Positions 3,536-64,000 of a stretch of DNA of 64,000 nt are shown here, piece by piece. The stretch comes from Rhodohalobacter mucosus (GTDB lineage Bacteria; Bacteroidota; Rhodothermia; Balneolales; Balneolaceae), in contig NZ_QGGB01000001.1 in assembly GCF_003150675.1 (NCBI RefSeq), positions 186,001-250,000 on the forward strand, written 5' to 3'. The translations under genes were made by a program, and so were the position numbers. Numbering within the stretch: the stretch's first letter is position 1; each line of letters begins with the position of its first letter. Below the pieces are notes generated by a model. The model did not search any database and was not told the origin of the DNA. It saw only the letters and a list, made by a program, of their open reading frames with translations.

Positions 3536-4027
3536 TCAAATGAGTTCATTAAACAGATACTCAGGGTTATAATCTACTTCAAACGATTCCAGCATTTTAA
3601 CATACTCACCAAGAAAAGACTCTTTTTTGTGACGCAATTCCTGATTCTGAATATATCTGATTACGTATGAGAGATCCCTTTTACAGTAGGAAAATGCACC
3701 GTATCCTTTCTGCCATGCAAAAGTCTCTTTACTGAGCCCCATTCGGTTGATCCATTTGGTGCTTTCCGATTTCAGATTTTGTACAAGAGCCGGTATGGCC
3801 TGATGCATTTTATATCCAATCAGGATGTGCAGATGATCTGGCATACTATTAATCTGGACCAGTTTATGTCCATTGTTCTGAATAATGCCCGTCATGTACA
3901 TATGAAGTCTGTTTTTCCATTGCGGAAGGATTAATGCCCTTCTGAATTTCACAGCAAAAACCAAATGTATATGAATTTGGGAGTAGGTGTTTGGGACGTT
4001 GCTTTTTTTGTTTTGAGTTTTTCTCAC
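3536..4027 (-). CDS. REP-associated tyrosine transposase (RAYT, IS200-like Y1)
   Basis: This 163-residue protein belongs to the Y1 HUH nuclease family of IS200/IS605 TnpA. The HUH motif is PDHLHIL, and the likely nucleophilic tyrosine is in YVIRYIQNQELRHK. The start is GTG at 4027; no ATG precedes the conserved domain. RAYTs are single-copy domesticated transposases that nick and move REP palindromes. This one is flanked by REP family A copies on both sides and by a tandem array built from a related palindrome. No IS ends, target duplication or tnpB are visible. Confidence 0.9.
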   Translation of the reverse strand: MRKTQNKKSNVPNTYSQIHIHLVFAVKFRRALILPQWKNRLHMYMTGIIQNNGHKLVQINSMPDHLHILIGYKMHQAIPALVQNLKSESTKWINRMGLSKETFAWQKGYGAFSYCKRDLSYVIRYIQNQELRHKKESFLGEYVKMLESFEVDYNPEYLFNELI

Positions 4028-31628: not shown

Positions 31629-32075
31629 TTACACAAGGTACTTCTCATCAAAATCAACTTTGTGTTCCTTCAAGAGTGCTCTTAATTCCACGGTAAATGA
31701 ATCGACCTTGTGCCTCTGTTCCTGATTTTTTATGTATTGAATCAATCTTGACTTTTCTTTCTCGCTGTGCGTAAATGCAGCATATCCATTTTGCCACCCT
31801 GAAAATGTTTCGAACAGCTGCATCTCTTTTATAAAACATGTACTCGCAAGCTTTATATCTTTCACCAATCCTGATAAAGATTGATCCGGATGAATATGGC
31901 TTAGAATGTGGATATGGTCATCCACACCATTGATTTGATACAGCTTGCATCTCTTGTTCCTTAATATCCCTGTAATAAATCTGTAAAGATCTTCTCTCCC
32001 GGGTTTTGTCAGACATGCAGACCGGTGTTTTGTACTGAAAACGATGTGATGATAATTTTTCAGATAGGTATTCAT
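31629..32075 (-). CDS. REP-associated tyrosine transposase (RAYT), second copy
   Basis: About 148 residues from the ATG at 32075, which has GGAGAG just upstream; an extension to 32102 would add nine residues with no family match. The HUH motif is DDHIHILSHI and the catalytic tyrosine is in LIQYIKNQEQRH. It differs from the RAYT at 3536-4027 and is surrounded by a different REP family. This fits the known one-to-one match of RAYT and REP types. Confidence 0.9.
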   Translation of the reverse strand: MNTYLKNYHHIVFSTKHRSACLTKPGREDLYRFITGILRNKRCKLYQINGVDDHIHILSHIHPDQSLSGLVKDIKLASTCFIKEMQLFETFSGWQNGYAAFTHSEKEKSRLIQYIKNQEQRHKVDSFTVELRALLKEHKVDFDEKYLV

Positions 32076-32174
32076 GGTCTCTCCGTTTTTTATGCAAACC
32101 AAAATTGTATCTCTCTAACCTTATGAACCGGGATTCAGGATTTCCTTACAAAAAAAATTTATGCCTCACGAATT

Positions 32175-50568: not shown

Positions 50569-50640
50569 GGAATGGAATAAAGATTGTAACGTAAGATTTT
50601 ACTGAACTTAAATACGAAATCGGGTTCATGTGCGCAACCT

Positions 50641-50868
50641 GTTTTTTCACCGCCCCGAAGTCTCGGGGCTAAGGCCGCGGAGTTATGTGGGGCTTCATAG
50701 TGAAATTTCAGGGTTGCCGGGGGGTTGCTACGCCCCATGGGGATCCCTGCGGGAGAGGCACGGAGAAAAGACGTATAAATTTTTCCTCCGTGTTTCGCTT
50801 CGCGGGGGAAATGATGAGCCGTGGCTATTATACAGTGCCCCGGTCTTGCTGCAGCCATGAAACGTGTT
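50641..50868. repeat. Dispersed repeat family D, copy 3
   Basis: Same segments as the other copies, with an extra insert GGGGGGTTGCTACGCCCCATGG and a GGGATCCC palindrome in the middle. It lies between the start of the propeller at 49351-50568 and the end of the one at 50897-52027. Confidence 0.75.
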
Positions 50869-50896: not shown

Positions 50897-52027
50897 TCAT
50901 TTATCCAAGGTCAATTCAATAATCATTCTTTCACCGGTTTCCATATTCTTGTATCCATACAACTTATCTCCGGAATATGATATCCCAAGCAAATAGGTGG
51001 GTACTGTAATGTGCCGCACTTTATCGCTTTTCGTATGATAGTGAATCAATAGACCCGTATCACTTCCGGCATCAAAGACCCGCAAAATGAGGCTACCGTT
51101 ATGTGCTACTAAATGATCATAATAGGGTAAGGTCTCGGTTTCATTAATGGCCGTTTCTACCGTGGGAGAACTTTCTATCAGACGATCATATCTCTTTTTT
51201 AAATACTCCCTCTGTGCATCAGAATTTTTTCGCTCACTGAGCGTGATCGCGGACAGGGTATCCTTTTCACCGGATATTAGATTGTAGGCATACACATTGG
51301 TCTTTTTAGACGTCATGTAGTAAAACCACTCTCCATCGAGATCCCAATGGGTCATGCTTCCCAGGAAGTTATCCATCTTTCCGATGGCCTCCTCACTTAT
51401 GGGTATTTTATCATTACCGGGCAGTTCAAGGAGCCGGTTTACGGGCTGAAATTCCTCATTCAGTTCATAGAGATAAAAGATATTATCCCACGTCTCATAA
51501 TCAGTCAGGCTCATAAACACCCCAAAAAACCCGAATTCCGTTACATATAAGCTGCTCATATGACTGTTTGCCTCATGTTTGTACGTGACGGTATTTTTTA
51601 GTGTGAGCTTACTCGTTTCATTATCCAGGCTATACATATGAACCCGATTCAGACGCTTGTCAAGAATGTAGATTGAGCCATCAGGGCCACGCTCAATTTG
51701 ATTGATGAGCGCATACTCACCGGGCCCCCGTCCCTGTCCCCCCGTTTTTGAAAGCATTGTACCGTCTCGTTTAATAACTTTCAAAAACTTATCTGCATAA
51801 TCGGACGCTAAAATATAGACCGAGCCTTCTAATGCATAAACGTGCAAAACGTTATACAGATCGGGGCTATCAATGAATGATTGCCGCTCTACCTCCAGTT
51901 CATCAGTTGATGACATGACACTCTCAATGAATGGATCAACCAAGAGATCATCATTACCCGGGGTTTCTGAACAAGAAAGCCCAAATAAAAACAGGAAAAT
52001 AAATTGAACGATCGTTCTGATTTTCAT
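50897..52027 (-). CDS. 6-bladed beta-propeller lipoprotein (module A)
   Basis: This 376-residue protein has a lipobox (FLFGLSC) and the family motif GGQGRGPGEYALI. Blade segments such as GSIYILDKRLNRVHMYSLD follow. It starts 21 bp after a decayed Cys-rich peptide gene, the position in which intact modules carry their peptide. It was therefore probably a peptide-propeller pair. Function unknown. Confidence 0.85.
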   Translation of the reverse strand: MKIRTIVQFIFLFLFGLSCSETPGNDDLLVDPFIESVMSSTDELEVERQSFIDSPDLYNVLHVYALEGSVYILASDYADKFLKVIKRDGTMLSKTGGQGRGPGEYALINQIERGPDGSIYILDKRLNRVHMYSLDNETSKLTLKNTVTYKHEANSHMSSLYVTEFGFFGVFMSLTDYETWDNIFYLYELNEEFQPVNRLLELPGNDKIPISEEAIGKMDNFLGSMTHWDLDGEWFYYMTSKKTNVYAYNLISGEKDTLSAITLSERKNSDAQREYLKKRYDRLIESSPTVETAINETETLPYYDHLVAHNGSLILRVFDAGSDTGLLIHYHTKSDKVRHITVPTYLLGISYSGDKLYGYKNMETGERMIIELTLDK

Positions 52028-52048: not shown

Positions 52049-52156
52049 TCAGCAGGACCCGGGTCCGCCACCATCACATTGAGCCATGCAGCAATTTGTC
52101 TGGCACAGATTGGAGTAACCCTTAATCGATTATAATTAAACATTTTGAATCTTCAT
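52049..52156 (-). pseudogene. Decayed Cys-rich peptide gene (module A)
   Basis: On the minus strand an ATG at 52156 opens MKIQNV and then stops. In another frame the next stretch reads GYSNLCQTNCCMAQCDGGGPGSC and stops at 52049. This has the look of the Cys-rich core of the neighbouring peptides with its leader lost by a deletion. The two-hairpin leader that precedes all intact peptide genes is missing; family D repeat copy 4 lies there instead. Confidence 0.55.
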
Positions 52157-52179
52157 CCGCTAATATATTTGGAATATAT

Positions 52180-52330
52180 TCACCGCAGAGACGCAGGGCA
52201 CGCAGAGGTTTTTTTGGGGGCTTCATGGCGAGATTTGGGGGATTGCCACTGAGGCACGGAGAATGAATATATAATTTTTCCCTTCCGTGCCTCTCGTTGA
52301 CCCCTATGGGGTGTGGCTACAATGGTTAGC
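52180..52330. repeat. Dispersed repeat family D, copy 4
   Basis: It starts TTCACCGCAGAGACGCAGGG, then GGGGGCTTCATGGCGAGATTT, GCCACTGAGGCACGGAGAA and CCCTTCCGTGCCTCT. It lies between the decayed peptide gene and the 3' end of the module B propeller, where a module leader would be expected. Confidence 0.8.
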
Positions 52331-52337
52331 CCCAATC

Positions 52338-53564
52338 TCATCGCCTCTCCTCAAGTTCAATCCTATATTTCACAATTACCTGAAGCCCGGTTTCCTTATC
52401 GGTTTGGCGGGTGTAAGCATACCCGTTCTTCACCACCTCAATCGGTTCATCGCGGGGCCATTCGAATTGGGTGATCAGCTCTCCTGACTCGTCAACTACC
52501 CACCACTCATGACTGTCCAGGTCTTCAATGATGGTAGCGACCCAGAGCCGGCCCCTGTCGTCCACCAGGATATCTTCGAGGGCGGGCCAGGTATCCGGTA
52601 TTTGTTCTTCCGGCGCGTTCTCAATTACGCTCACCCGCCATTCAAATACACCCTCTTCATAGTCACTGATCTGCTGGCTGATCGCATCCTCACGGGTAAA
52701 CACCGCGTTTTGATACGGTGCATAGTACGTCCGCTGATAGTTTCCGGCGGCATCATATACCTTAATTAAAAATTCGCCGGAACGCGCCATATAGATGGCG
52801 TTCTCCGATGTTGTGATCAGGGTTGACCCCAGGAATTCAAACTGGGTAAACCGGTACTGCCCTTCCACCGTGGCCGACAAGGCCTTATAGGCCGGCAGCG
52901 TAAACAGGCTGTCCAATTCAAGTTTTCGGTTACGATCCATGAGATGATAGATGCGAAACCTGTTGTTCAGATTATATCCTTCATATGACGGATTGGGAAC
53001 CAGCCGTGACGTAAAATTGACCAGGAATCTGTCGGGGTTGATAAAGACAAAGCCGCTTTGCATGAGGCCGTCCAGCCAGGCAACCTCCCTTTTGTTGATG
53101 GCCTGAATATGGATGGTACCGGACTCTTCATACGTATCCAATGAAAATGTGCTTAGCCTCATCATCATCGGGTCGTAAACGTGTATATATCCGTTTGAGA
53201 ACTTAGGCCCTCCCATGGCACGAAACTCACCCGGGCCCGACCCTTCCCTACCAAAATGGGTGAGGTACCGCCCTGACTGATCAAAAACATGTACCCGGTG
53301 CTGCATGGCATCAGCTATATACAATTGCCCGTCATCATCAATGTCAAATTGCCCCAGCCTGCCAATAAGATTATGTTCCGAGCTTGCAAAAACGGCCTCT
53401 TTTTCCAAAAAAATGGTTAATAAACTGTTCTCCTCATCAGATACAACGAGCAGGTTTTCAAGCTCCGGTATGTTACTTGCATCTTCATGAGAACACCCCA
53501 TCATGAATAAGATCAGGATTACAAAAAGCACTGACCTGAATATTGTAGTTTTAATATTCGACAT
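52338..53564 (-). CDS. 6-bladed beta-propeller lipoprotein (module B)
   Basis: About 408 residues from the ATG at 53564; an in-frame extension to 53690 would overlap the peptide gene and lacks family similarity. The lipobox is LFMMGC and the family motif is GREGSGPGEFRAM. The segment LDSLFTLPAYKALSATVEGQ is also found at the start of the chimeric fragment at 53981-54385. The C-terminus (RQTDKETGLQVIVKYRIE) matches the module E propeller. It lies 59 bp after the module B peptide. Confidence 0.87.
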   Translation of the reverse strand: MSNIKTTIFRSVLFVILILFMMGCSHEDASNIPELENLLVVSDEENSLLTIFLEKEAVFASSEHNLIGRLGQFDIDDDGQLYIADAMQHRVHVFDQSGRYLTHFGREGSGPGEFRAMGGPKFSNGYIHVYDPMMMRLSTFSLDTYEESGTIHIQAINKREVAWLDGLMQSGFVFINPDRFLVNFTSRLVPNPSYEGYNLNNRFRIYHLMDRNRKLELDSLFTLPAYKALSATVEGQYRFTQFEFLGSTLITTSENAIYMARSGEFLIKVYDAAGNYQRTYYAPYQNAVFTREDAISQQISDYEEGVFEWRVSVIENAPEEQIPDTWPALEDILVDDRGRLWVATIIEDLDSHEWWVVDESGELITQFEWPRDEPIEVVKNGYAYTRQTDKETGLQVIVKYRIELEERR

Positions 53565-53623: not shown

Positions 53624-53875
53624 TTAATGTATTGCTAAATCGGAGCATTGTCCCCACGATCCGCTTGAATAAGGCCCATTCCGTCTGCAAGCCATGTCTG
53701 GATCTTCAGTGGTTAGCTCATACGTGATTTCCACTGCATCAGATCCATCATCATTCCAGCAAATCAGGCAATTCGTGCATTCATTTTCAGTGCAATCATG
53801 GTTTCCTGCCATAATCATCTTCATTTCACTACGGTTCAAAACGCCTTCTACTTGTGATAAGATTGATGAATTCAT
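53624..53875 (-). CDS. Cys-rich secreted peptide precursor (module B)
   Basis: This 83-residue protein has a leader (residues 1-24) that ends VLNRSEMKMIMAG, followed by a core with six Cys (28, 33, 36, 39, 63, 77). The leader type is that of Bacteroidota natural-product precursors cut after a double-glycine-like site; here the site is AG. It has a GGAGG ribosome-binding site 8 bp before the ATG and the conserved two-hairpin 5' leader. The partner propeller follows. Core function unknown (bacteriocin or signal are both possible). Confidence 0.78.
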   Translation of the reverse strand: MNSSILSQVEGVLNRSEMKMIMAGNHDCTENECTNCLICWNDDGSDAVEITYELTTEDPDMACRRNGPYSSGSWGQCSDLAIH

Positions 53876-53966
53876 CGTTTTACCTCCATTTATTTAAAAC
53901 CCGTTTTGCCATTTGACGGGGTACGGGTTATAAACTACACCCCTGTTTGATCACTCAAACACTCTT
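53876..53966 (-). promoter_or_regulatory. Conserved two-hairpin 5' leader of the module B peptide
   Basis: The first hairpin is at 53944-53961: on the minus strand TGTTTGA-GTGA-TCAAACA, followed by GGGG. The second is AACCCGT paired with ACGGGTT, around an 18-nt loop. An AAATGGAGG ribosome-binding site and the ATG follow. The distance from the first hairpin to the ATG is 68 nt. The first hairpin has no T-run, so it is not a standard terminator. Confidence 0.75.
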
Positions 53967-53980
53967 TGTTTCCCTGACAC

Positions 53981-54385
53981 TCACCGCAACTCCTTGGTAA
54001 TATTGTTATACACGCGTTCCAGAAGCCGCATGTCCTGCGTAATAATCTCGGCCCGGCCGGTCATGCCGTTTCTCGGCGGGATGTCGTGCCCGTAGCTGGT
54101 CAATAACCCGTCGGGGAAGTGAACTTTGGCGAGGAAGAGGCTGTCGCGTACGGGGAACTCCGAAAAGTACTCCACCTCGCCGTACACCGAACCGAACTCG
54201 TGATAGGGGTAGCCGCTGAACCGGACTATCACCCGCTGGCCTTCCCGGACCCTGCCGAACGACTGCTGGGCAACGGCAAGCTCGCCGAACCAGGTGGTGT
54301 TGCCGGGCTGCAGGTATAGCAGCTCCTGCCCGACCGCTGTGGCCGATAAAGCCTGATAATCCCTAAGTGTAAACAGGCTGCCCAA
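53981..54385 (-). pseudogene. Chimeric fragment: propeller piece fused to the HlyD C-terminus
   Basis: The first about 17 residues (GSLFTLRDYQALSATAVGQ) match an internal piece of the module B propeller. The remaining about 115 are nearly identical to the C-terminus of the HlyD protein at 55910-57241 (NTTWFGELAVAQQSFGRVREG onward). The join is at a shared GQ/GQE. It lacks the membrane anchor and coiled coil and is unlikely to work as an adaptor. It lies between the module C propeller and leader B. Confidence 0.85.
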
Positions 54386-54386
54386 C

Positions 54387-55508
54387 TCAAAATTGAAACG
54401 TTCTTATTTCGCTTTCTTTTGTAATCACAATGAATAGGTTATTATCAAAATCTATGTCAAACGTAGGTAATAGTTCTACTTCTGAAACCAGTTTATACCT
54501 TTGATTCAAATCTCCATTTTTATCGAATTCATGAATCCAAAGTGGGAGTTCAGGACTATTATAAGTAGCTAAATAAAGATTACCTTCTTTATCGCTTACT
54601 CCCCATGTATATGCTCTAAAAGTAGCTACGGCATCCGTTATACTTAGAATTTCTTGCATTGTATTGAAGAAAGCATTCTTTATAGCATCAATTTCAGGGT
54701 TATCACCTATCTCCTTACTCCATATTTTCGTACCATTTGCATCGTATTTTTCAATTCTCGGAATAGCATTATAAACCATAAATATTTCACCTGAACCTGA
54801 TCCGTCTTTAACCGGAAATACATTATGAATTAAAAGATTCGGGACTTCTCTATTTGAAATAGAAGTTCTGAACAGGTTATAGTCCAGCTCAAATGAGCTG
54901 CCTTCCGGGATTTCGCCAAAATCCATTATAGTATTACCTTCAAAATCTGCAATTTGGTAAACTGTATTTTCCATTTGTGCAGCGGGTAATAACACATAAT
55001 CAAAATCTGTTATAATAGGCTGGTTATTAATATTTACAGCATATAAATTATCAAGGAATGATAGGTCAGGGGCCGGAACGGGTGGCAGTGGCGGCAAAGT
55101 TAAACCGGCTTTTTGTTTGTACTCCAGTGATGTTTCATATACTCCATCCACTGTAAATTTGTGAATTTTTAAACCAATATCATCAATGATATAGATGTAA
55201 TCCTCTATATGGAAAACGTTATTAACTCTTAGAAACTCGCCCGGACCTCTACCCCTGTTACCGTATTTTCCAACTACTTCACTCAGTTTATTCAATTTAA
55301 GAAGTTCACCTCTGCGGCTATCATAAACTAAAAGATTATCATCGTTGTCGAATTTAACGATGGTTGGATTTACGACTAAATTATCATCACTTGAAACAAG
55401 TGTTTCAAATTGTTCGAGCTCAGTAACACCCACTTCATTGAATGGAGATTTATCTGTTGAACAACTTGATAAAATCAATAAGGAAACTGTTATGTATATT
55501 ATTTTCAT
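54387..55508 (-). CDS. 6-bladed beta-propeller lipoprotein (module C)
   Basis: This 373-residue protein has a lipobox (LLILSSC) and the motif GNRGRGPGEFLRV, followed by blades (YIYIIDDIGLKIHKFTVDG). It lies 89 bp after the module C peptide. Its sequence is less like the other module propellers, and its base composition is more AT-rich than that of the adjacent HlyD gene. This fits separate recent histories of the modules. Confidence 0.85.
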   Translation of the reverse strand: MKIIYITVSLLILSSCSTDKSPFNEVGVTELEQFETLVSSDDNLVVNPTIVKFDNDDNLLVYDSRRGELLKLNKLSEVVGKYGNRGRGPGEFLRVNNVFHIEDYIYIIDDIGLKIHKFTVDGVYETSLEYKQKAGLTLPPLPPVPAPDLSFLDNLYAVNINNQPIITDFDYVLLPAAQMENTVYQIADFEGNTIMDFGEIPEGSSFELDYNLFRTSISNREVPNLLIHNVFPVKDGSGSGEIFMVYNAIPRIEKYDANGTKIWSKEIGDNPEIDAIKNAFFNTMQEILSITDAVATFRAYTWGVSDKEGNLYLATYNSPELPLWIHEFDKNGDLNQRYKLVSEVELLPTFDIDFDNNLFIVITKESEIRTFQF

Positions 55509-55597: not shown

Positions 55598-55804
55598 CTA
55601 TCCTTCTCCAACACCACTGCAAGTGCAGGATACTCCATGAGTTGGTCCGTGTTGACCGTCTCTACAATCACAATCCGACCCTGAACAATAACTGACACAG
55701 GCGCTGCAATTTGTTGGGTCGTGGTCATAGCAACACATACCGCATTCTTCACCCAGGGAACCTGCCAGTATATGTTTCATCTCATTTCTATTAAGAATTT
55801 GCAT
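55598..55804 (-). CDS. Cys-rich secreted peptide precursor (module C)
   Basis: The protein has 68 residues from the ATG at 55804, chosen because it matches the start of the module D peptide and has GGAGG 8 bp upstream. The in-frame ATG at 55819 lies inside that ribosome-binding site. The leader MQILNRNEMKHILAG (1-15) is followed by a core with ten Cys (21, 24, 25, 33, 36, 40, 45, 47, 60, 62), rich in Gly, Ser and Asp. Even Cys numbers suit disulfides. Confidence 0.8.
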   Translation of the reverse strand: MQILNRNEMKHILAGSLGEECGMCCYDHDPTNCSACVSYCSGSDCDCRDGQHGPTHGVSCTCSGVGEG

Positions 55805-55895
55805 TTTTCTATCCTCCATTTAATTTAAACCCGTTTTTTCCGTTTGGAGAGGTACGGGCTATGAGATACCCCTGTTTGATCGCTCAAACACTCTT
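55805..55895 (-). promoter_or_regulatory. Conserved two-hairpin 5' leader of the module C peptide
   Basis: Hairpin 1 is at 55873-55890 (minus strand TGTTTGA-GCGA-TCAAACA, then GGGG). Hairpin 2 is AGCCCGT with ACGGGTT. ATGGAGG and the peptide ATG follow, 68 nt after hairpin 1. The block follows the HlyD stop by 14 bp. Confidence 0.75.
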
Positions 55896-55909
55896 TGTTT
55901 ACCGGACAC

Positions 55910-57241
55910 TTATCTCAACTCCTTTGTAATATTGTTATACACGCGCTCCAGCAGCCGCATATCCTGTGTGATAATCTCGGCCCGGCCGGTCATGCCGTTT
56001 CTCGGCGGGATGTCGTGCCCGTAGCTGGTCAATAGCCCGTCGGGGAAGTGCACTTTGGCGAGGAAGAGGCTGTCGCGTACGGGGAACTCCGAAAAGTACT
56101 CCACCTCGCCGTACACCGAACCGAACTCGTGATAGGGATACCCGCTGAACCGGACCATCACCCGCTGGCCTTCCCGGACCCTGCCGAACGATTGCTGGGC
56201 AACGGCAAGCTCGCCGAACCATGTGGTGTTGTCGGGCTGCAGGTAGAACAGCTCCTGCCCGGCCGCCACAGTCTGGTTCTCCTGCACAATGCCGGCATAC
56301 ACCACGCGACCGGCAAAGGGCGCCGTTACCAGGTAGCTGCGCTTCCACTCTTCGATGGCGCTTTTCATCAGGTTCAGGGATTGCAGGAACACGGAGCGCT
56401 GTTCCCCGATTCTCCGCTCAAGCTCCATGATCTCTTTCTCCTTTGCGGCCCGGGATACCTGATTGCCGATAATGGCCGATTCGGTCTGGTGAAGCGGCAG
56501 CTGCCGCGACGCCAGTTCCCGTTCGGCGCGGGCAAGCTCCAGCGATGTGATATAGTCGCCGTCGGCCAGCCGTTTTTGCATCTCAAACTCCCGCCGGGCC
56601 AGCTCATAGTCGCCCTGCTGTATCTCTTTTTGCTCAATCAGCATCTCCAGCTGTTCCCGGTTGAATGCCAGTTCCTGCTCCAGGATCTCTCTCTGGCGGC
56701 TGTAATAGGCGCCCGGACGAAACGAAAGGTACTCCCTCCACGCCTGCTCGAACCCCTGAAAGGTGTTCTGAAGCTCCCCCAGGTTGCCGAATGCGGCCAG
56801 GTCGATCTCCAGCTTGTCCACGCCGCCACCGCTGTCGTTTAAAAGTTCTCCCCTGATCTGTTCAATAAAATCGTCCAGACGAAGCACTTCACCATGATGG
56901 GCCGTACTTTCCAGCCAGGCCAGAACGGCTCCCTCCTCCGCGTCCGCGTTGTTCTCGGCGGCAAGACGGACGATTTTCCCGTTCACCCGGCTCTCGAGCG
57001 ACTGCGGGGCATGGATGGCCGTCAGCTTCAACGGAGCCTGAATTACTTCGGGATAGCGGATCACAGACGCCGACAGCAGCACCAGCCCCAGCACCCCGAA
57101 AAAGGCCGTTATTCCCCACCTCACCAGCCAGTGCGGCGGCCGCCCGATGATCTCCTGCACCTCCTCGCTGCGTACTTCCAGCTCGGGAAACGGGCTTTCC
57201 GATTCAGTTCGGGTTGGTATGTGGTTGTTGGTTTGTGGCAT
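55910..57241 (-). CDS. HlyD-family membrane-fusion adaptor
   Basis: This 443-residue protein has a short cytoplasmic N-terminus, one membrane helix (about residues 45-62), a biotinyl-lipoyl-like half, a long coiled coil (about 150-310) and a C-terminal beta-barrel domain. HlyD proteins link an inner-membrane ABC exporter to an outer-membrane channel. The partner exporter lies upstream, 250 bp away across an inverted-repeat element. No TolC-type gene is seen in the window. Confidence 0.92.
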   Translation of the reverse strand: MPQTNNHIPTRTESESPFPELEVRSEEVQEIIGRPPHWLVRWGITAFFGVLGLVLLSASVIRYPEVIQAPLKLTAIHAPQSLESRVNGKIVRLAAENNADAEEGAVLAWLESTAHHGEVLRLDDFIEQIRGELLNDSGGGVDKLEIDLAAFGNLGELQNTFQGFEQAWREYLSFRPGAYYSRQREILEQELAFNREQLEMLIEQKEIQQGDYELARREFEMQKRLADGDYITSLELARAERELASRQLPLHQTESAIIGNQVSRAAKEKEIMELERRIGEQRSVFLQSLNLMKSAIEEWKRSYLVTAPFAGRVVYAGIVQENQTVAAGQELFYLQPDNTTWFGELAVAQQSFGRVREGQRVMVRFSGYPYHEFGSVYGEVEYFSEFPVRDSLFLAKVHFPDGLLTSYGHDIPPRNGMTGRAEIITQDMRLLERVYNNITKELR

Positions 57242-57250
57242 AATTTCTGT

Positions 57251-57486
57251 GAAAAGTGAAAAGGCAGAAGTGAAAAGGACATCCCCTCTTGAGAGGGGAC
57301 CGAGTTGAAGAAGTGCGCAGAGCGCGTCTTCAAAACTCAGGGGTGTGTTTGGCAGGGCTCGAAGCTAACAACAGGAACACACCCCTCGCTTGGCAAATCA
57401 GGCTTCGCCTTTTTGCCGTCGCCTTTCCCCTCTCGAGAGGGGACATTTCTTCTCACCCTTCACTTCTGCCTTCTCACTTTTGCCAT
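57251..57486. mobile_element. Inverted-repeat (MITE-like) element between exporter and HlyD genes
   Basis: The ends are inverted copies of about 25 bp built around AGGCAGAAGTGAA (left 57251-57278, right 57457-57486). Inside are two family C palindromes (CCCCTCTTGAGAGGGG and CCCCTCTCGAGAGGGG), with AGGGGTGTGTT and AACACACCCCT facing each other. No transposase gene is inside. It splits the exporter-adaptor operon, but direction and order are kept. Confidence 0.65.
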
Positions 57487-57491
57487 TTCAC

Positions 57492-59681
57492 TCAAACCCC
57501 CAGTTCCAGTTGATTTTTTACGAGTTCAAAATACGCTCCTTCCCGGCCGGCCAGTTCGCTGTGCGTGCCCTGTTCAATGATTCGGCCCTCTTCGAGCACC
57601 ACGATGTTATCGGCGTGTTTGACCGTGCTGAGGCGGTGGGCGACGACCACCACCGTCCGGTTTTGGAAAAATTGGTTCATGTTGTCCATGATGGCGCGCT
57701 CGTTGTTGGCATCGAGAGCGTTGGTGGCTTCATCGAAAAAGAGAAACTCCGGGTCTTTGTACACAGCGCGGGCAATCAGCATCCGCTGGCGCTGCCCCTG
57801 GCTGATGCCGTTCCCCTCGGCCCCGATTTTGGTATTGAACCCGAGCGGCAGCGACTCGATAAACTCCCGGATGTTGGCCACATTTACCGCGTGCTCCAGC
57901 TTTTGAATGTCGGGCATTTCGTCACCCACCGCAATATTGCGGGCAATGGTGTCGGAAAAGATAAACCCGTCCTGCATCACAGCGCCGCACTTACTGCGCC
58001 ATACACGCGGACTCAGGTTCACAAAATTGCTCTCCCCGATCCGGATCTCGCCGCTGTCGGGCGGATAGAACTTGAGCAGCAGTTTCAGCAGCGTGGTTTT
58101 CCCGCTGCCGCTCATGCCCACGACCGCCGTCACTTTTCCTTCTGGTATGTGCAGATCGATATCCCGAAGCACCGGTTCATTGCCCGCCCCGGGGTAGGTG
58201 AAACTCAGTTTCTTCAGCGTAAGATCTTTGCTTTTTGGCAGCTCGCGGGTAAACATCTTTTCCGAAGGTTCTTCGTCCTCCTTCTCGTGTACTTCGTTGA
58301 GGCGCTCCATGCTGATGATGGCATCCTGGGTGGACTGCACAAACCCGATGAGCTGCTGCACCGGACTGTTGAGCTGTCCTATAATGTACTGAATGGCGAG
58401 CATGGCACCGAGGGTGAGCTGCCCGTTCACCACGGCAATAGCCGAGATAAATGTAATCCCGATATTCTTCCCCTCATTAATGAAAAAAGCCCCGCCCTGT
58501 TGGTACTGCTCGAGGGCCAGGTTTTTCACCTGGTAGCGGAAGAGCCGCGCCTGCAAGTGCTCCCACTCCCACCGCTTCTGCTTTTCACAGTTGTTGAGCT
58601 TGATCTCCTGCATCCCCTGGATGAGCTGGATCACCGTGCTCTGATTGCTTGAGGAGATGCCGAAACGGCGGTGATCGAGCTCACGCCGCTTTTTCAGAAA
58701 AAGGACGATCCAGATCACATAGAGAGTGCTGGCTACCAGGAAGACAGTAAAGATCATCATGTGGTAGTACGCCAGCACCAGCGAGAAGACGATCAGGGTG
58801 ACGAAAGAGAAGAGCGTGCTGAGGGTCTGCCCGGTTAAAAAGTTCTGGATACGGGCGTGGTCGCCCATACGCTGCATGATATCGCCCACCATCTTGGTAT
58901 CGAAAAAGGGCATCGGCAGCTTCATCAGCTTAATCAGGAAATCGGACAGAATGGAGATGTTGATCCGCGTACTCATATGAAGCAGAATCCACGAACGGAT
59001 AAACTCCACGACCGTCCGGCCGAAAAAAAGCATCAGCTGCGCCATCAGGATCAGGTAGATGAAGTTGATGTCGCGGTTTTGGATCCCGATATCAACCACC
59101 GCCTGGGTGAGAAACGGAAAAATCAGCTGCAGGATACTGCCGGCCAGCAGGCCCAGCGCCAACTGAAACAGCAGGTTCTTGTAGGGCAGGATATAGCGAA
59201 ACAGGATTCCAAAACTCAACCGGTTGCCCGTCTCTCCTTCTAAATCGTAAAATGCGGGTGATGTATAGAGCAACAATGCAATCCCGGTACTCTGCCCGTT
59301 ATTCCGGCTGTTAAGCCACTGCTCGAGAAACTCCTCCTTTCGGTACGTCACCTTCCCCTTTGCCGGATCGGCAATATAGATCTTATCTCCCTTTATTTTA
59401 TAGACAACCACAAAATGCACCTGGTTCCAGTAGATCACGCACGGCAGGGCCGCTTCCTTTTTAAGCTGCTCCCAGGTCAGTTTCGCCCCCACCGTGCGAA
59501 ACCCAATCTCCTCGGCCGCCTCGCTGATGCCCAGCAGTGACACGCCCTCACGGTTGATACCGCTCTTTTGCCTCAGAGTATCCATCGTATAGCTGCGACC
59601 GTGGTGTTTGGCAATCATTCGCAGGCAGGTGGGGCCGCAGTCCATTTGATCGTATTGGCGGTAGTGGGAGAAGATTTTCAT
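57492..59681 (-). CDS. C39-peptidase ABC exporter (PCAT)
   Basis: This 729-residue protein has an N-terminal C39 peptidase with catalytic Cys15 in QMDCGPTC, His89 in NQVHFVVVY and Asp105 in IADPAKG. A six-helix membrane domain lies at about 160-450. The ATPase has Walker A GMSGSGKTTLL, signature ISQGQRQRMLIARA and Walker B FLFFDEATNALD. C39 cuts leader peptides after a double-glycine-like site while the exporter moves the core. The start directly abuts the module D propeller stop (TAG-ATG). Confidence 0.96.
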   Translation of the reverse strand: MKIFSHYRQYDQMDCGPTCLRMIAKHHGRSYTMDTLRQKSGINREGVSLLGISEAAEEIGFRTVGAKLTWEQLKKEAALPCVIYWNQVHFVVVYKIKGDKIYIADPAKGKVTYRKEEFLEQWLNSRNNGQSTGIALLLYTSPAFYDLEGETGNRLSFGILFRYILPYKNLLFQLALGLLAGSILQLIFPFLTQAVVDIGIQNRDINFIYLILMAQLMLFFGRTVVEFIRSWILLHMSTRINISILSDFLIKLMKLPMPFFDTKMVGDIMQRMGDHARIQNFLTGQTLSTLFSFVTLIVFSLVLAYYHMMIFTVFLVASTLYVIWIVLFLKKRRELDHRRFGISSSNQSTVIQLIQGMQEIKLNNCEKQKRWEWEHLQARLFRYQVKNLALEQYQQGGAFFINEGKNIGITFISAIAVVNGQLTLGAMLAIQYIIGQLNSPVQQLIGFVQSTQDAIISMERLNEVHEKEDEEPSEKMFTRELPKSKDLTLKKLSFTYPGAGNEPVLRDIDLHIPEGKVTAVVGMSGSGKTTLLKLLLKFYPPDSGEIRIGESNFVNLSPRVWRSKCGAVMQDGFIFSDTIARNIAVGDEMPDIQKLEHAVNVANIREFIESLPLGFNTKIGAEGNGISQGQRQRMLIARAVYKDPEFLFFDEATNALDANNERAIMDNMNQFFQNRTVVVVAHRLSTVKHADNIVVLEEGRIIEQGTHSELAGREGAYFELVKNQLELGV

Positions 59682-60911
59682 CTACCTTTCAATAAATTCA
59701 ATTTTATGTTTAACAATTCGATCAATGCCATCTTGCTGATTAACCTCTCTTGTGTAAAAATAGTTATTATGTACGCGGATCAATGGTTCCGACATGACAT
59801 TACGAGATGATCTATTTCCTGGCAATTGAAATCTTGCTAACATCTCTCCCTGTTGGTTTACCAGGTGCCATAGGTATGTAGAGTCGTTTTCTGATATTGA
59901 CGCTATCCACATTCTGCCCTTATTATCCATCTCCAATGTGTGGACCACGGGCCAACTTTCTGGCATTTCATACTGATCAATCGCTCTTTGCCGCTCTTTT
60001 CTCAAGTCAAAGTCTCGCATGTTAAGTGGTGCATTTAACATAGGGTAGTAGAAGGCCCGTTGGTAGTTTCCCTCACCATCATATTCTTTTACCAGAAACT
60101 CTTCCGTTTGATTGGTAAAAAAGTGACCGCCTTTCGTCATAGTAACCAGTGAACTCCTTGTGAACGGCATGGTGAACGGAACATCTGTTCCTTCATTCAC
60201 AGGGAAGTATAATTTAAACCTCTCCTTCTTCAGTAAATTTTCACTCTCTAAATAACCATCATTTTTCAATTTTCTATAAAGCATTGTTCGTTCATCTGCA
60301 CCACTGTAGATTGCAAGTGTCTTTAATCGAACAATTACAGTTTCATCGTCTGTTACAAATAGCCGATCGACCCTTAATCTGTTTATAAGACTGTCCGATT
60401 GATTTTCAATTACATTCCTAATTACCACATCTCTGATATGGGAAAAATCTTCAATTGAATAAATACTGACTTTTTGTAAAGATGAACAAAACAGAAATAA
60501 CTTATTATTTACAATATCCATAGACCGAATGTTTTCAAACTCACCCGGCCCTCTTCCATACCTTCCAATTTTTGTAATAAACTTACCATTCTCTCTAAAA
60601 ACGTATACTGAAGCCTGTCCCATTCGAGATACACCTACATACACCCTCTCATTATCATCTATTGCAATTCTGTTTATATAACCATCCAAAAAAACATCTT
60701 CGCTGCTCTCAAAGTTAACTTCTCGGAAAAGTTCTACAGTATCTGGTACCTGGTGCTCAGTAGAAATGATTTTCAAATTTTGAAGCTCCTGAATGTGACC
60801 CGGCAGAATTAAATCATTTTGAGCATTATGATTATCATTCGTACAACTGAAAATGAAAAACATAATCCCGATCAATATCACAGAATGATTATTGTATATG
60901 TATTGTAACAT
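59682..60911 (-). CDS. 6-bladed beta-propeller lipoprotein (module D)
   Basis: About 409 residues from the ATG at 60911, which gives a normal lipoprotein signal (GIMFFIFSC); a longer in-frame start would run into the peptide gene. The family motif is GRYGRGPGEFENI. The C-terminus (RMWIASISENDSTYLWHLVNQQG) matches the other module propellers. It abuts the exporter gene, so the two are probably translated together. Confidence 0.86.
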   Translation of the reverse strand: MLQYIYNNHSVILIGIMFFIFSCTNDNHNAQNDLILPGHIQELQNLKIISTEHQVPDTVELFREVNFESSEDVFLDGYINRIAIDDNERVYVGVSRMGQASVYVFRENGKFITKIGRYGRGPGEFENIRSMDIVNNKLFLFCSSLQKVSIYSIEDFSHIRDVVIRNVIENQSDSLINRLRVDRLFVTDDETVIVRLKTLAIYSGADERTMLYRKLKNDGYLESENLLKKERFKLYFPVNEGTDVPFTMPFTRSSLVTMTKGGHFFTNQTEEFLVKEYDGEGNYQRAFYYPMLNAPLNMRDFDLRKERQRAIDQYEMPESWPVVHTLEMDNKGRMWIASISENDSTYLWHLVNQQGEMLARFQLPGNRSSRNVMSEPLIRVHNNYFYTREVNQQDGIDRIVKHKIEFIER

Positions 60912-60957
60912 AAATTGAACCACGAGGTGATAAAACCTCGTGGTATTTTTTGAATTA

Positions 60958-61185
60958 CTAATTAATATCCAATTCAGTGCTTGGACAGGGGTCTGCATTT
61001 GAAAAGTTTCCTTCTCCACAACTTGCACAACAGTATCCGGTAACTTCTTCGAAACCTGTATACCAGTCTTGGGCATTAGTTTCATCCCAATCGCATCCTC
61101 CCCAGCTTCCGTTCATAAAAATTCGGCAAGAACCACTACTACCAGCCATAATATGTTTCATCTCACTTCTACTTAGAATTTGCAT
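60958..61185 (-). CDS. Cys-rich secreted peptide precursor (module D)
   Basis: This 75-residue protein has leader MQILSRSEMKHIMAG (1-15) and a core with six Cys (20, 31, 52, 53, 56, 67), rich in Trp, Gly and acidic residues. The leader differs from that of module C by four residues, while the cores share only the Cys pattern type. It is preceded by the two-hairpin leader and followed after 46 bp by its propeller. Confidence 0.8.
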   Translation of the reverse strand: MQILSRSEMKHIMAGSSGSCRIFMNGSWGGCDWDETNAQDWYTGFEEVTGYCCASCGEGNFSNADPCPSTELDIN

Positions 61186-61277: not shown

Positions 61278-62459
61278 TCACATCTCCGACATCATAACGC
61301 TTTCCTCGAATTCGATCCCGTACTTCACGATCTCTTGAACCCCTGTTTCTTCATCAGTTTGTCGAGTGTACATATGGCCTCCTCGTACTAATTCTATCGG
61401 CTCCTGACGTAACCACTTAAATTTTGTGATAAGTTGACCTAACCCATCCAGCACCAACCATTCGTAGATATCAGAATTTTCCACAATAGTTGAAACCCAA
61501 ATCCGATTCTCATCATCAACAAACATATTGTTAAGCATAGGCCAATCCTGAGGAAATGAAGCTTCCTGAATCGCTAAATGAAACAATTCGTTACCTTCAT
61601 ACCATTTGATAACTTCATCTCTGTTTAATGGCACTGACTCTACGTCAAATGTGATTGAGTGAACAAATTCACCGTCCTTATTCATTACTTTAATTTCAGA
61701 TTCACCAGTCTCAGCCAAATACACCATTCCCTCTTCAGATACAGCTATCAATGGACGACTTGAAAATGGTAATTCCATGGTTATAGAAGAATTCCCAACC
61801 TGAGCATTAAATATGCTTATAGCATTTTGGCTGAATTGTATCTTGTCTTCTAATAACTCTCCCTCATTATCAACTATGTAATAGTGAATCTTCCGGTCAT
61901 TTTTATTTGGAATTTTTGGATCTTCAAATCCAACAAGAAAAGCTCTGTTGTCAAGGACAAATAGTCTTTCTAGTGTCTCCCCCTCAATCGATTTTTGACT
62001 TGACAAAGTTGATTTCGAAATACTTATCTCATCCACCAATTGGTAACGATTGTTAGTCTCACTGTTTGAAAATGAAATTAACTTATTATTCAATTTATCA
62101 AACAAATATATTGTACCTGAGCTTGTTATTAAATGTCCCAATGTTCTGAACTCGCCAGGACCATTTCCCTCACTGCTGATCTTGGTGATATATTTTCCAT
62201 CAGGATTGAAAACATGCACGGTTCTGCTACCTAATGAATTTTCCGCAATGTAAACGCGATTGTATTTATCAACCTCTACCATTCCCATATTTCCAATAAC
62301 TACCTCAGCATCACCCCCAAATCTTTGTATTTCTGTTACATTTATATTGAAAAGAATATTGTTAAGTTTCTTAGTTACTTCATTTTCACTTTCGGAACAT
62401 GAAAAAACAAAGCCAGCTAAAACTATGATTCCTAAACAGTAAAATGTCTTGGTATTCAT
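61278..62459 (-). CDS. 6-bladed beta-propeller lipoprotein (module E)
   Basis: This 393-residue protein has a lipobox (GFVFSC) and the family motif SSEGNGPGEFRTL. Late blades (RIWVSTIVENSDIYEWLVLDGLGQLI) are close to those of module B. Its last residues (MMSEM) and the bases around the stop are the same kind as those of the VKOR-thioredoxin gene upstream, so the repeated unit includes the 3' end of the preceding gene. It lies 84 bp after its peptide gene. Confidence 0.87.
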   Translation of the reverse strand: MNTKTFYCLGIIVLAGFVFSCSESENEVTKKLNNILFNINVTEIQRFGGDAEVVIGNMGMVEVDKYNRVYIAENSLGSRTVHVFNPDGKYITKISSEGNGPGEFRTLGHLITSSGTIYLFDKLNNKLISFSNSETNNRYQLVDEISISKSTLSSQKSIEGETLERLFVLDNRAFLVGFEDPKIPNKNDRKIHYYIVDNEGELLEDKIQFSQNAISIFNAQVGNSSITMELPFSSRPLIAVSEEGMVYLAETGESEIKVMNKDGEFVHSITFDVESVPLNRDEVIKWYEGNELFHLAIQEASFPQDWPMLNNMFVDDENRIWVSTIVENSDIYEWLVLDGLGQLITKFKWLRQEPIELVRGGHMYTRQTDEETGVQEIVKYGIEFEESVMMSEM

Positions 62460-62543: not shown

Positions 62544-62768
62544 TTACGCTTCCCCAATATCTGAATTACTGCATGTAGTCGCAGTTGTATCTTCATATTG
62601 TACTTGGCAGCACGTTAGCTGCTCCATATCGCTTGAACAAGTTACTGAACCAAGTTTTTTTGTTCCCTGGGGACTTCCAAAACTTCCCGAATAGCATGTA
62701 CAACTATACCAGCCATCGAATCCAGCTATTACACTTTTCATCTCATTTCTATTTAAAATGTGCATCAT
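62544..62768 (-). CDS. Cys-rich secreted peptide precursor (module E)
   Basis: This 74-residue protein has leader MMHILNRNEMKSVIAG (1-16) and a core with six Cys (23, 25, 44, 53, 54, 66), rich in Ser, Thr and Gly. Either of two adjacent ATGs (62768, 62765) may be used; AAAGGAT is the likely ribosome-binding site. It is the first peptide after the VKOR-thioredoxin gene. Confidence 0.78.
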   Translation of the reverse strand: MMHILNRNEMKSVIAGFDGWYSCTCYSGSFGSPQGTKKLGSVTCSSDMEQLTCCQVQYEDTTATTCSNSDIGEA

Positions 62769-62862: not shown

Positions 62863-64000
62863 TCACATCTCTGATATTTTTACATTTCCAGAATGTACTT
62901 TCTCCAACTTCATGCTATTGTGATTCGCAAATGCATCCGTCAGCCCCGGAATCAATACAGCCAGATCCTTCACCCGGTAAGTCGCCGGCAGCTCATACCC
63001 GTTCATAAAGGTGGTTGGCGTTTTCGTTATTCCGGCGCTTTTTACCCATTCATAATGAGCCTGTACATACTCTTTTGCTACGGAATCTGAAACCGACCCA
63101 TTTACCGGGCACGCGGCTTCAAACGTTTCGGGAATCATCAACTCGTACCAAGTATCGATCAACACCCGGCCTTTTTCATGACGGGGAATTCCGTTTTGCT
63201 CTTCCATTAAAGCATGCAGCCATGTTTTTAACAGCAATCCGCTTGATTTACCTTTATCCCCGCTTCTTAGAAACCGCAGGGAGAGGCTGACCTGCCCGGG
63301 ATAGATATTCAGCAGCTCCTTTGCCTGCTCCAGCTCGCTTTTACACGGGCCGCAGAACAGGTTCACCGCCATGGTGAGTTTGACCGGGGCATCCGGGCTG
63401 CCGATAAGGAAATCGTGTTCAAGGGGCGAGGTGTCCACCTGCCGCTGTTTGAACAGCAGGCTTGTGAATACGTCCGGTGAGTTTTTAATTCGTGCAGCGG
63501 CAATCTCGTTTTGCACCGCCCGGTTTTTCTGCTGAATGGTCTGTTTCAGAAGAAGAAGTGAAGAGCCTGCCAATCCGAACAGTAAAAGCACCATGACTGC
63601 ATCCGGTAGAGCGAATGCCATCGGATGGATCAACCCCGAGTAGAATAGGTAGCCGAATAGGAATGCCTGAAGGGCCAGGATTCCGCTCACCACCAGGCAA
63701 AGGCGGCACCACTCCTTGATTTTCACCGCCTGCAGCCAGAGCGAGTACCCAATAACGGGCAGGGCAAGCATACTTATCAAACCCAGTACCGAAAGCAGGC
63801 CGCTGCCCGCCCAAAGCGGTACGAATAATCCGATGGCTACAAGATGACCAACAAAATAACCCAGCGTTAAGTCTGAAAATGTGATAAACCCTAACAGTTT
63901 TCCTTCCTCCGAGCGCAGCACTTTCCCGCAGCCTGCACCGGTACCGGCGTTGCAGAATCTCTCCACCGCCCGGTAGGTGATGCCCAGGTCTTTGGCGAAC
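62863..64000 (-). CDS. VKOR-thioredoxin fusion (disulfide-forming membrane protein), 5' end beyond window
   Basis: The frame stays open to the window edge, so the N-terminus is missing; the GTG at 63966 is internal. A VKOR domain is seen: RFCNAGTGAGCGKVL with the first Cys pair, several membrane helices, and the CxxC site in KEWCRLCLVV. A thioredoxin/DsbA-like domain follows, with NLFCGPCKSELEQ. Such fusions form disulfides in exported proteins. Its place at the head of the peptide modules suggests the Cys-rich cores as substrates. A further C39-like domain may precede the visible part. Confidence 0.86.
   Translation of the reverse strand, partial: FAKDLGITYRAVERFCNAGTGAGCGKVLRSEEGKLLGFITFSDLTLGYFVGHLVAIGLFVPLWAGSGLLSVLGLISMLALPVIGYSLWLQAVKIKEWCRLCLVVSGILALQAFLFGYLFYSGLIHPMAFALPDAVMVLLLFGLAGSSLLLLKQTIQQKNRAVQNEIAAARIKNSPDVFTSLLFKQRQVDTSPLEHDFLIGSPDAPVKLTMAVNLFCGPCKSELEQAKELLNIYPGQVSLSLRFLRSGDKGKSSGLLLKTWLHALMEEQNGIPRHEKGRVLIDTWYELMIPETFEAACPVNGSVSDSVAKEYVQAHYEWVKSAGITKTPTTFMNGYELPATYRVKDLAVLIPGLTDAFANHNSMKLEKVHSGNVKISEM

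Follow-up and report, generated by a model that had tools for sequence, protein, structure and literature searches.

How did the 3' end of an exporter-adaptor gene come to lie, fused to a piece of a propeller gene, between two peptide genes of a secretion locus? The question is raised by a short minus-strand frame at 53981-54385 of the window, by which we mean the whole 64,000-nt stretch of the Rhodohalobacter mucosus genome analysed here (contig NZ_QGGB01000001.1, positions 186,001 to 250,000). The account that we consider the likeliest, with some reserve, is that this chimera is a scar at the border of exchangeable peptide-plus-propeller modules, left behind when a module (A) displaced another (B) by recombination at the end of an exporter gene.

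The chimera in its secretion locus

All the genes of the module region lie on the minus strand, and in the order of transcription they encode a VKOR-thioredoxin protein, a peptide and a propeller, a second peptide and propeller, a C39-ABC exporter, the HlyD adaptor, peptide A and its propeller propA, the chimera, peptide B and its propeller propB, a peptide remnant, and three more propellers. The window holds the C-terminal part of the VKOR-thioredoxin protein (62863..63966; PF07884, 35.5 bits; PF13462, 29.3 bits), a likely disulfide donor whose gene runs past the window and whose full ORF comprises 560 aa (in L006). The first upstream module consists of a peptide precursor (62544..62768) and a propeller (61278..62459) that is 31% identical to propB over its full length. 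The last codons of this propeller (61278..61293, MSEM*) may be a mini-scar of the VKOR 3' end, as the alignment with that end continues through the UTR; the coding part scores weakly above other propeller ends (29 vs 24), so that such a derivation is suggestive only. The slot upstream of the exporter is occupied by a peptide precursor with a 6-Cys core (60958..61185) and a propeller (59682..61085, given as the longest ORF, the true start being internal), and is followed by the exporter itself (57492..59681; PF03412, 127.6 bits, PF00664 and PF00005), in which the C39 peptidase domain (PF03412) is N-terminal, at residues 6-122.

The intact hlyD-type gene (55910..57241; PF13437, 47.6 bits) is followed by the 5'UTR of peptide A (55820..55909), by the peptide A precursor with its 10-Cys core (55598..55819) in the slot adjoining hlyD, and by its partner propA, a lipoprotein propeller (54387..55508). 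Peptides of the A type lie beside propA-type propellers also in the genomes G078, G070 and G058. Downstream of the chimera come a 5'UTR common to the peptide genes (53876..53980), the precursor of peptide B, displaced but conserved (53624..53875; leader NR.EMK..MAG, 6-Cys core), and its partner propB, a lipoprotein with a 6-bladed propeller (DUF5128; 52338..53564) that has orthologs in G047 (72%) and G058 (63%). The propB, propA and exporter-slot propellers match PF17170 with 52.4, 35.3 and 55.2 bits, respectively, above the gathering threshold of 22.9. Further on, a leaderless Cys-rich peptide core remnant (52049..52129, translation SNLCQTNCCMAQCDGGGPGSC) and an X-type propeller left with no intact peptide (50897..52027), which is the best match of the propellers behind pepX in G047 and G058, represent a decayed module whose propeller was retained.

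Some other features of the window were recorded. A long imperfect inverted repeat lies between hlyD and the ABC gene (57260-57460), with a weak, below-threshold match to the whalefall-1 RNA (E 0.048); no convincing match was obtained in an Rfam search of the 17-kb region. Related intergenic repeats of the GAGGCACGGAGAA type are found between propeller genes at 50640-50860 and 52160-52340. Two IS200/REP-type transposase-like ORFs are located far from the module region (3536-4027 and 31629-32102), and inspection of the module-region ORFs revealed neither an integrase nor a transposase.

A first-pass annotation had described the chimera as about 17 residues of a propeller, starting at 54385, that continue as a nearly unchanged HlyD C-terminus joined at a shared GQ. 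The nucleotide alignment of the chimera with the hlyD region, suggested there as a check, bore out the fusion, which lies at a GGGCAG (GQ) present in both parents. Homology to hlyD begins at 54337 (GCGGTCGGGCAG), with the intact copy beginning at 56266, and extends at ~92% nt identity through the stop codon (53981) and the intergenic UTR to just past the peptide ATG (53868 / 55813). The scar proper (53981..54337) thus corresponds to HlyD residues ~325-443 plus the stop codon, its frame still being open; it matches TIGR01843 (E 5.8e-12), and its coding part is 94.6% identical to hlyD 55910-56266 over 351 nt. Homology ends just after the peptide start codon, and the coding parts of peptides A and B cannot be aligned, in agreement with the wholly different peptide cores noted before. 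A leader and a peptide do follow, as they do behind the real hlyD; what the two leaders have in common is the motif NR.EMK.I.AG, with no nucleotide likeness past the first codons.

The head is indeed a propB-type propeller piece, though slightly longer than first described: it comprises ~18-21 residues, corresponding to propB-type residues ~217-236, with homology from 54390 onwards (54326..54390). It is 77% identical in nucleotides to propB 52857-52921, and 13 of 18 residues (72%) are identical to those of the propB protein (SLFTLRDYQALSATAVGQ vs SLFTLPAYKALSATVEGQ). No parent nearer than propB, nor any propeller nearly as close, was found for the 18-aa head among the ~110 propellers surveyed or elsewhere in 28 genomes of the genus. 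The 450-nt match to hlyD and that to the propeller (E values of about 1e-6 to 1e-8) are both far above chance. Since the head also extends over the stop codon (54387-54389) of propA, the gene upstream, the object is a three-part mosaic of the propA 3' end, a propB-type piece and the hlyD 3' end. The frame opens with a TTG just behind the propA TGA, and neither an evident Shine-Dalgarno sequence nor a membrane anchor was detected in it, which makes a working product unlikely; the chimera would then be a dead, non-functional scar.

Gene-end scars across the family

Five assemblies, belonging to two genera, have hlyD-3' scars between their modules (the window, G047, G058, L009 and Fodinibius halophilus G010). 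The earlier idea of a recombination fossil, with a unit tied to the peptide slot, is upheld, although not as a single accident. In a DNA search covering 92 genomes of the family, both G047 and G058 showed a second, partial hlyD end lying 1.9 kb behind the intact one, in the order hlyD, peptide X, propX, hlyD 3' scar, peptide B and propB, so that the module behind the scar is B in the window, G047 and G058 alike, while the one in front differs. Two hlyD-3' scars are found in L009; this sequence (PWFQ01000055.1) is labelled Clostridiaceae, carries a Rhodohalobacter-type locus and is probably mis-binned or mislabelled. On contig 27 of F. halophilus, which is devoid of an exporter, two modules each lie behind hlyD-3' scars, the first one with a peptide B homologue, and orthologous peptide B cores stand behind hlyD scars in G047, G058 and G010. 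Counted in HlyD residues, the scars begin at ~325 for the window, ~391 for G047 and G058, and ~373 for L009, and they range from 17 codons, for the shortest one of F. halophilus, to ~119.

Pieces of two further genes were found at module borders. Orphan 5' ends of ABC-exporter genes amount to 16 in 8 genomes in the table of scars, and 13 of them lie at most 170 nt behind the stop codon of a same-strand propeller (no more than 90 nt for 12 of these). The orphan 3' ends of VKOR sit in front of peptides, and the source genome itself has one of them (G000 contig 1, 252833-252949), located 2.3 kb upstream from the intact VKOR gene and 111 nt before another peptide gene. Past the window, at L006 4459-4949, there is another peptide-plus-propeller module behind a VKOR 3' scar. 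In contig 208 of G058 an ABC-5' piece is fused directly to a VKOR-3' piece, after which come a peptide, a propeller and a full ABC gene.

The regions examined were picked by gene-end matches, and queries with the hlyD N-terminus and the middle of the ABC gene were used as controls for this choice. The former matched 12 intact genes and no fragment, and the latter matched intact or contig-end-cut genes plus no more than two fragments, both doubtful (G006 and G091), from which it follows that the orphans come almost only from those gene ends that face module slots. Leftovers in at least 10 related genomes suggest that secreted peptides have been repeatedly renewed by recombination at the ends of exporter genes.

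Origin of the scars

The differences between the scars and their own hlyD genes are found mainly at third codon positions, with dN/dS of 0.07 in the window, 0.02-0.06 in L009 and G058, and 0.29 in G047 (few changes), while pairs of intact hlyD genes show 0.05-0.11. When the changes on the scar branches were polarised with outgroups, the four scars pooled gave 41 synonymous and 19 non-synonymous changes (p 3e-11; neutral expectation ~23-27%). This bias indicates that the scars are former ends of working hlyD alleles rather than copies made in place. In the window scar branch alone the bias is modest, 6:5, with p about 0.02 under a model without transition bias. Codon-position bias was also considered as a proof of allelic origin for the window by itself; the outgroup-polarised count weakens that argument, and the proof lies in the pooled scars. 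For a large part of the time that it evolved separately, the window scar probably still formed the end of a functional hlyD; module B would be the old neighbour that A displaced.

The L009 scar has 80% identity to the hlyD of its own locus, while the hlyD of another species is nearer to that gene, with 91%, and the scars of L009 and G058 clearly derive from the hlyD of another lineage. In a tree, the scar and the hlyD of the window group as sisters with support 100, and the scars of different species form no single clade. A single ancestral scar for all species was also considered; it is ruled out by this topology together with the different scar start in the window and in G047/G058. The latter two have the propX/scar junction in common, with propX ends ~95% identical, but the G047 scar is 93.7% identical to its own hlyD and 84.9% to the G058 scar, its closest sequences being its own hlyD and that of L009. 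A common junction with lineage-specific scars requires later recombination between scar and hlyD ends, an exchange that, to judge from these sequences, continues.

The order of events that we infer would be as follows. Peptide B and propB would once have been located directly behind a full-length hlyD. DNA from a related locus would have recombined in, so that an hlyD with peptide A and propA took the place of module B; the old hlyD would have been reduced to its 3' end, with the propB-type piece attached at the GGGCAG microhomology, and module B pushed downstream. One side of the exchange would involve recombination with hlyD, ABC or VKOR sequence, and the other a poorly matched or illegitimate join. 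The hlyD 3', ABC 5' and VKOR 3' ends, facing module slots, would supply the homology, and such exchanges would have taken place many times in the family. DNA uptake followed by RecA-type recombination could be responsible, with which the ComEC found in the genome fits. Homology-facilitated illegitimate recombination, with one homologous and one illegitimate end, has been described in other naturally competent species (PMC3240628); it is a mechanism and not a family, and would yield a gene end truncated at a short microhomology such as the GGGCAG found here. Observations that speak against the displacement of B by A include the ratio of only 6:5 in the window scar branch, which is compatible with duplication in place followed by decay, and the propB-type head, whose second junction is not supplied by a single insertion.

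A serious rival, although a rather doubtful one in our view, is the tandem duplication of the whole locus followed by deletion of the second exporter between propA and peptide B, starting within the propeller that precedes the ABC gene and reaching to the hlyD 3' end, at GGGCAG. Given the gene order propeller-ABC-hlyD, such a deletion would yield exactly the fusion of the chimera in one step, and the window scar is nearest to its own hlyD. Exporters cut down to an ABC 5' end joined directly to an hlyD 3' end do exist in G018 (L130 10192-10734) and G013 (L131 10820-11847), where propeller arrays are retained beside the reduced exporter; these remnants look like the product of plain deletion. 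However, the adjoining modules are not duplicates, since the A and B propellers are unrelated, with ~22-26% identity over short stretches, and the L009 and G058 scars are clearly other alleles. If the duplication came about through unequal exchange with another strain, this rival would become one with the displacement of B by A; the two are exchanges between homologous loci that differ in the intermediate.

It is unlikely, and somewhat less probable than duplication and deletion, that the hlyD 3' piece is functional, kept because it supplies the displaced peptide gene with a promoter or leader RNA. The UTR side is always retained in the scars, and a palindrome, TGTTTGA-GYGA-TCAAACA (with GTGA in the centre of the copy behind the scar), lies within the 5'UTR of each of the five peptide genes recognised in the genome (53944-53961, 55873-55890, 61255-61272 and 62840-62857, and 252804-252821 of G000 contig 1) and was not found elsewhere in the genome at up to 2 mismatches. 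Its arms are nearly invariant, and as RNA it has a GNRA-like loop, so that it could be either a hairpin or a regulator site. Nevertheless, the range of scar lengths, together with one peptide B gene, in G058, without the palindrome, indicates that no fixed segment of hlyD is needed.

Copying in place, by which the hlyD 3' end with UTR and leader was inserted into a propeller gene or beside one, was the origin put forward in the first-pass annotation, and we consider it improbable. The identity of the scar to the local hlyD and the extension of homology over the UTR and the start codon are in its favour, but it leaves unexplained the presence of the same module B behind the scar in three species with different front modules, the different scar starts of the window and G047/G058, and the synonymous bias of the scar branches, which makes the proposed direction probably wrong. 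Finally, an assembly artefact joining two repeats 2 kb apart is very improbable, since 5-8% of the positions differ between the two copies, the contig extends over 271 kb and independent assemblies have analogous junctions.

Peptide and propeller pairs, and known systems

Leaders of the type LxRxEMKxIxAG/GG, with a predicted cleavage site, are present in 50 precursors, a set collected with this very motif, and the peptides matched no family of Pfam or NCBIfam. An even number of Cys residues is present in 47 of 48 peptide cores, in keeping with disulfide peptides and with a VKOR-thioredoxin gene at the locus. Peptides and propellers co-vary in the 48 pairs analysed (Mantel r 0.47, permutation SD 0.034), and the nearest neighbour agrees in 19 of them, when 1 was expected and the maximum in 2000 permutations was 7; both statistics are inflated by orthologous modules of sister species. 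A lipobox signal, searched for with a simple pattern, is present in 55 of 112 propeller ORFs and in 7 of 121 control ORFs, and is visible in propA and propB. The core of peptide B, though displaced, is under purifying selection (dN/dS 0.03-0.16), which indicates that the displaced module is still used. No peptide was recognised for 64 of the 112 propellers, a number to be read knowing that the motif search misses some peptides, and this would fit effectors that were lost while their partners were retained. Comparison of propX between G047 and G058 (L036 5750-6958 and L037 2678-3979) shows ends 89-98% identical and a middle of about 300-400 nt with 65-84% identity, and peptide X differs as well between the two; the middle could possibly be a specificity region. 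From anatomy only, the peptide would be a bacteriocin-like effector and the propeller its immunity or receptor protein.

In orphan cdiA-CT/cdiI and Rhs modules, displaced variable pairs lie behind the working locus, each with a conserved-gene piece of variable length; displaced partners can remain functional, and recombination in the conserved part, also after tandem duplication, has been proposed (PMC3150448). Conserved-gene fragments (hlyD-3', ABC-5' and VKOR-3') likewise precede the displaced modules here. They come, however, from separate exporter and maturation genes, while those of CDI/Rhs come from the toxin gene (CdiA/Rhs core, VENN motif), and the effectors are small secreted Cys-rich peptides, encoded by separate small ORFs, with lipoprotein propellers as partners. 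By this comparison the locus would work like the orphan CDI/Rhs arrays without being a member of them. The blp locus is Gram-positive, with immunity proteins unlike propellers. In the portions of the blp literature consulted, variable exported bacteriocin-like peptides and immunity genes at one exporter locus are described for Streptococcus pneumoniae, as here, whereas no exporter-gene scars between modules are reported (PMC4860687, PMC6422914).

The export machinery resembles C39 ABC/HlyD double-glycine-type systems in its C39 domain, its HlyD partner and leaders ending in AG/GG. Neither the ABC nor the HlyD protein reaches the curated cut-off of its models (TIGR03796, TIGR01193 and TIGR01843): the exporter scores 438.5 bits for the NHLP bacteriocin exporter model TIGR03796 (cut-off 853.3), and HlyD 84.2 bits for TIGR01843 (cut-off 208.65), while it passes Pfam HlyD_3. 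A literature search rendered no report of this locus and no paper with NVEALA, and a search on Balneolaceae bacteriocins nothing relevant.

The scars thus constitute, beyond a one-off oddity, a readable record of the renewal of a secreted-peptide repertoire, which shows new modules, displaced modules and the genes that act as recombination arms. We tentatively consider, as a possibility, a family-wide exchange independent of integrases, in which the ends of exporter and maturation genes would serve as standing homology arms, new peptide-plus-propeller pairs of toxin and immunity protein would be loaded beside the exporter and older pairs archived behind scars, and exchange between scars and genes would keep the scars similar, so that pairs could be reloaded or passed between species. 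The pairing nominates the DUF5128 propellers, a large class of unknown function, as specific partners, for immunity or as receptors, of secreted disulfide peptides. If these peptides are bacteriocins, the orphan-module principle of CDI/Rhs would be extended to small-peptide export in the Balneolaceae.
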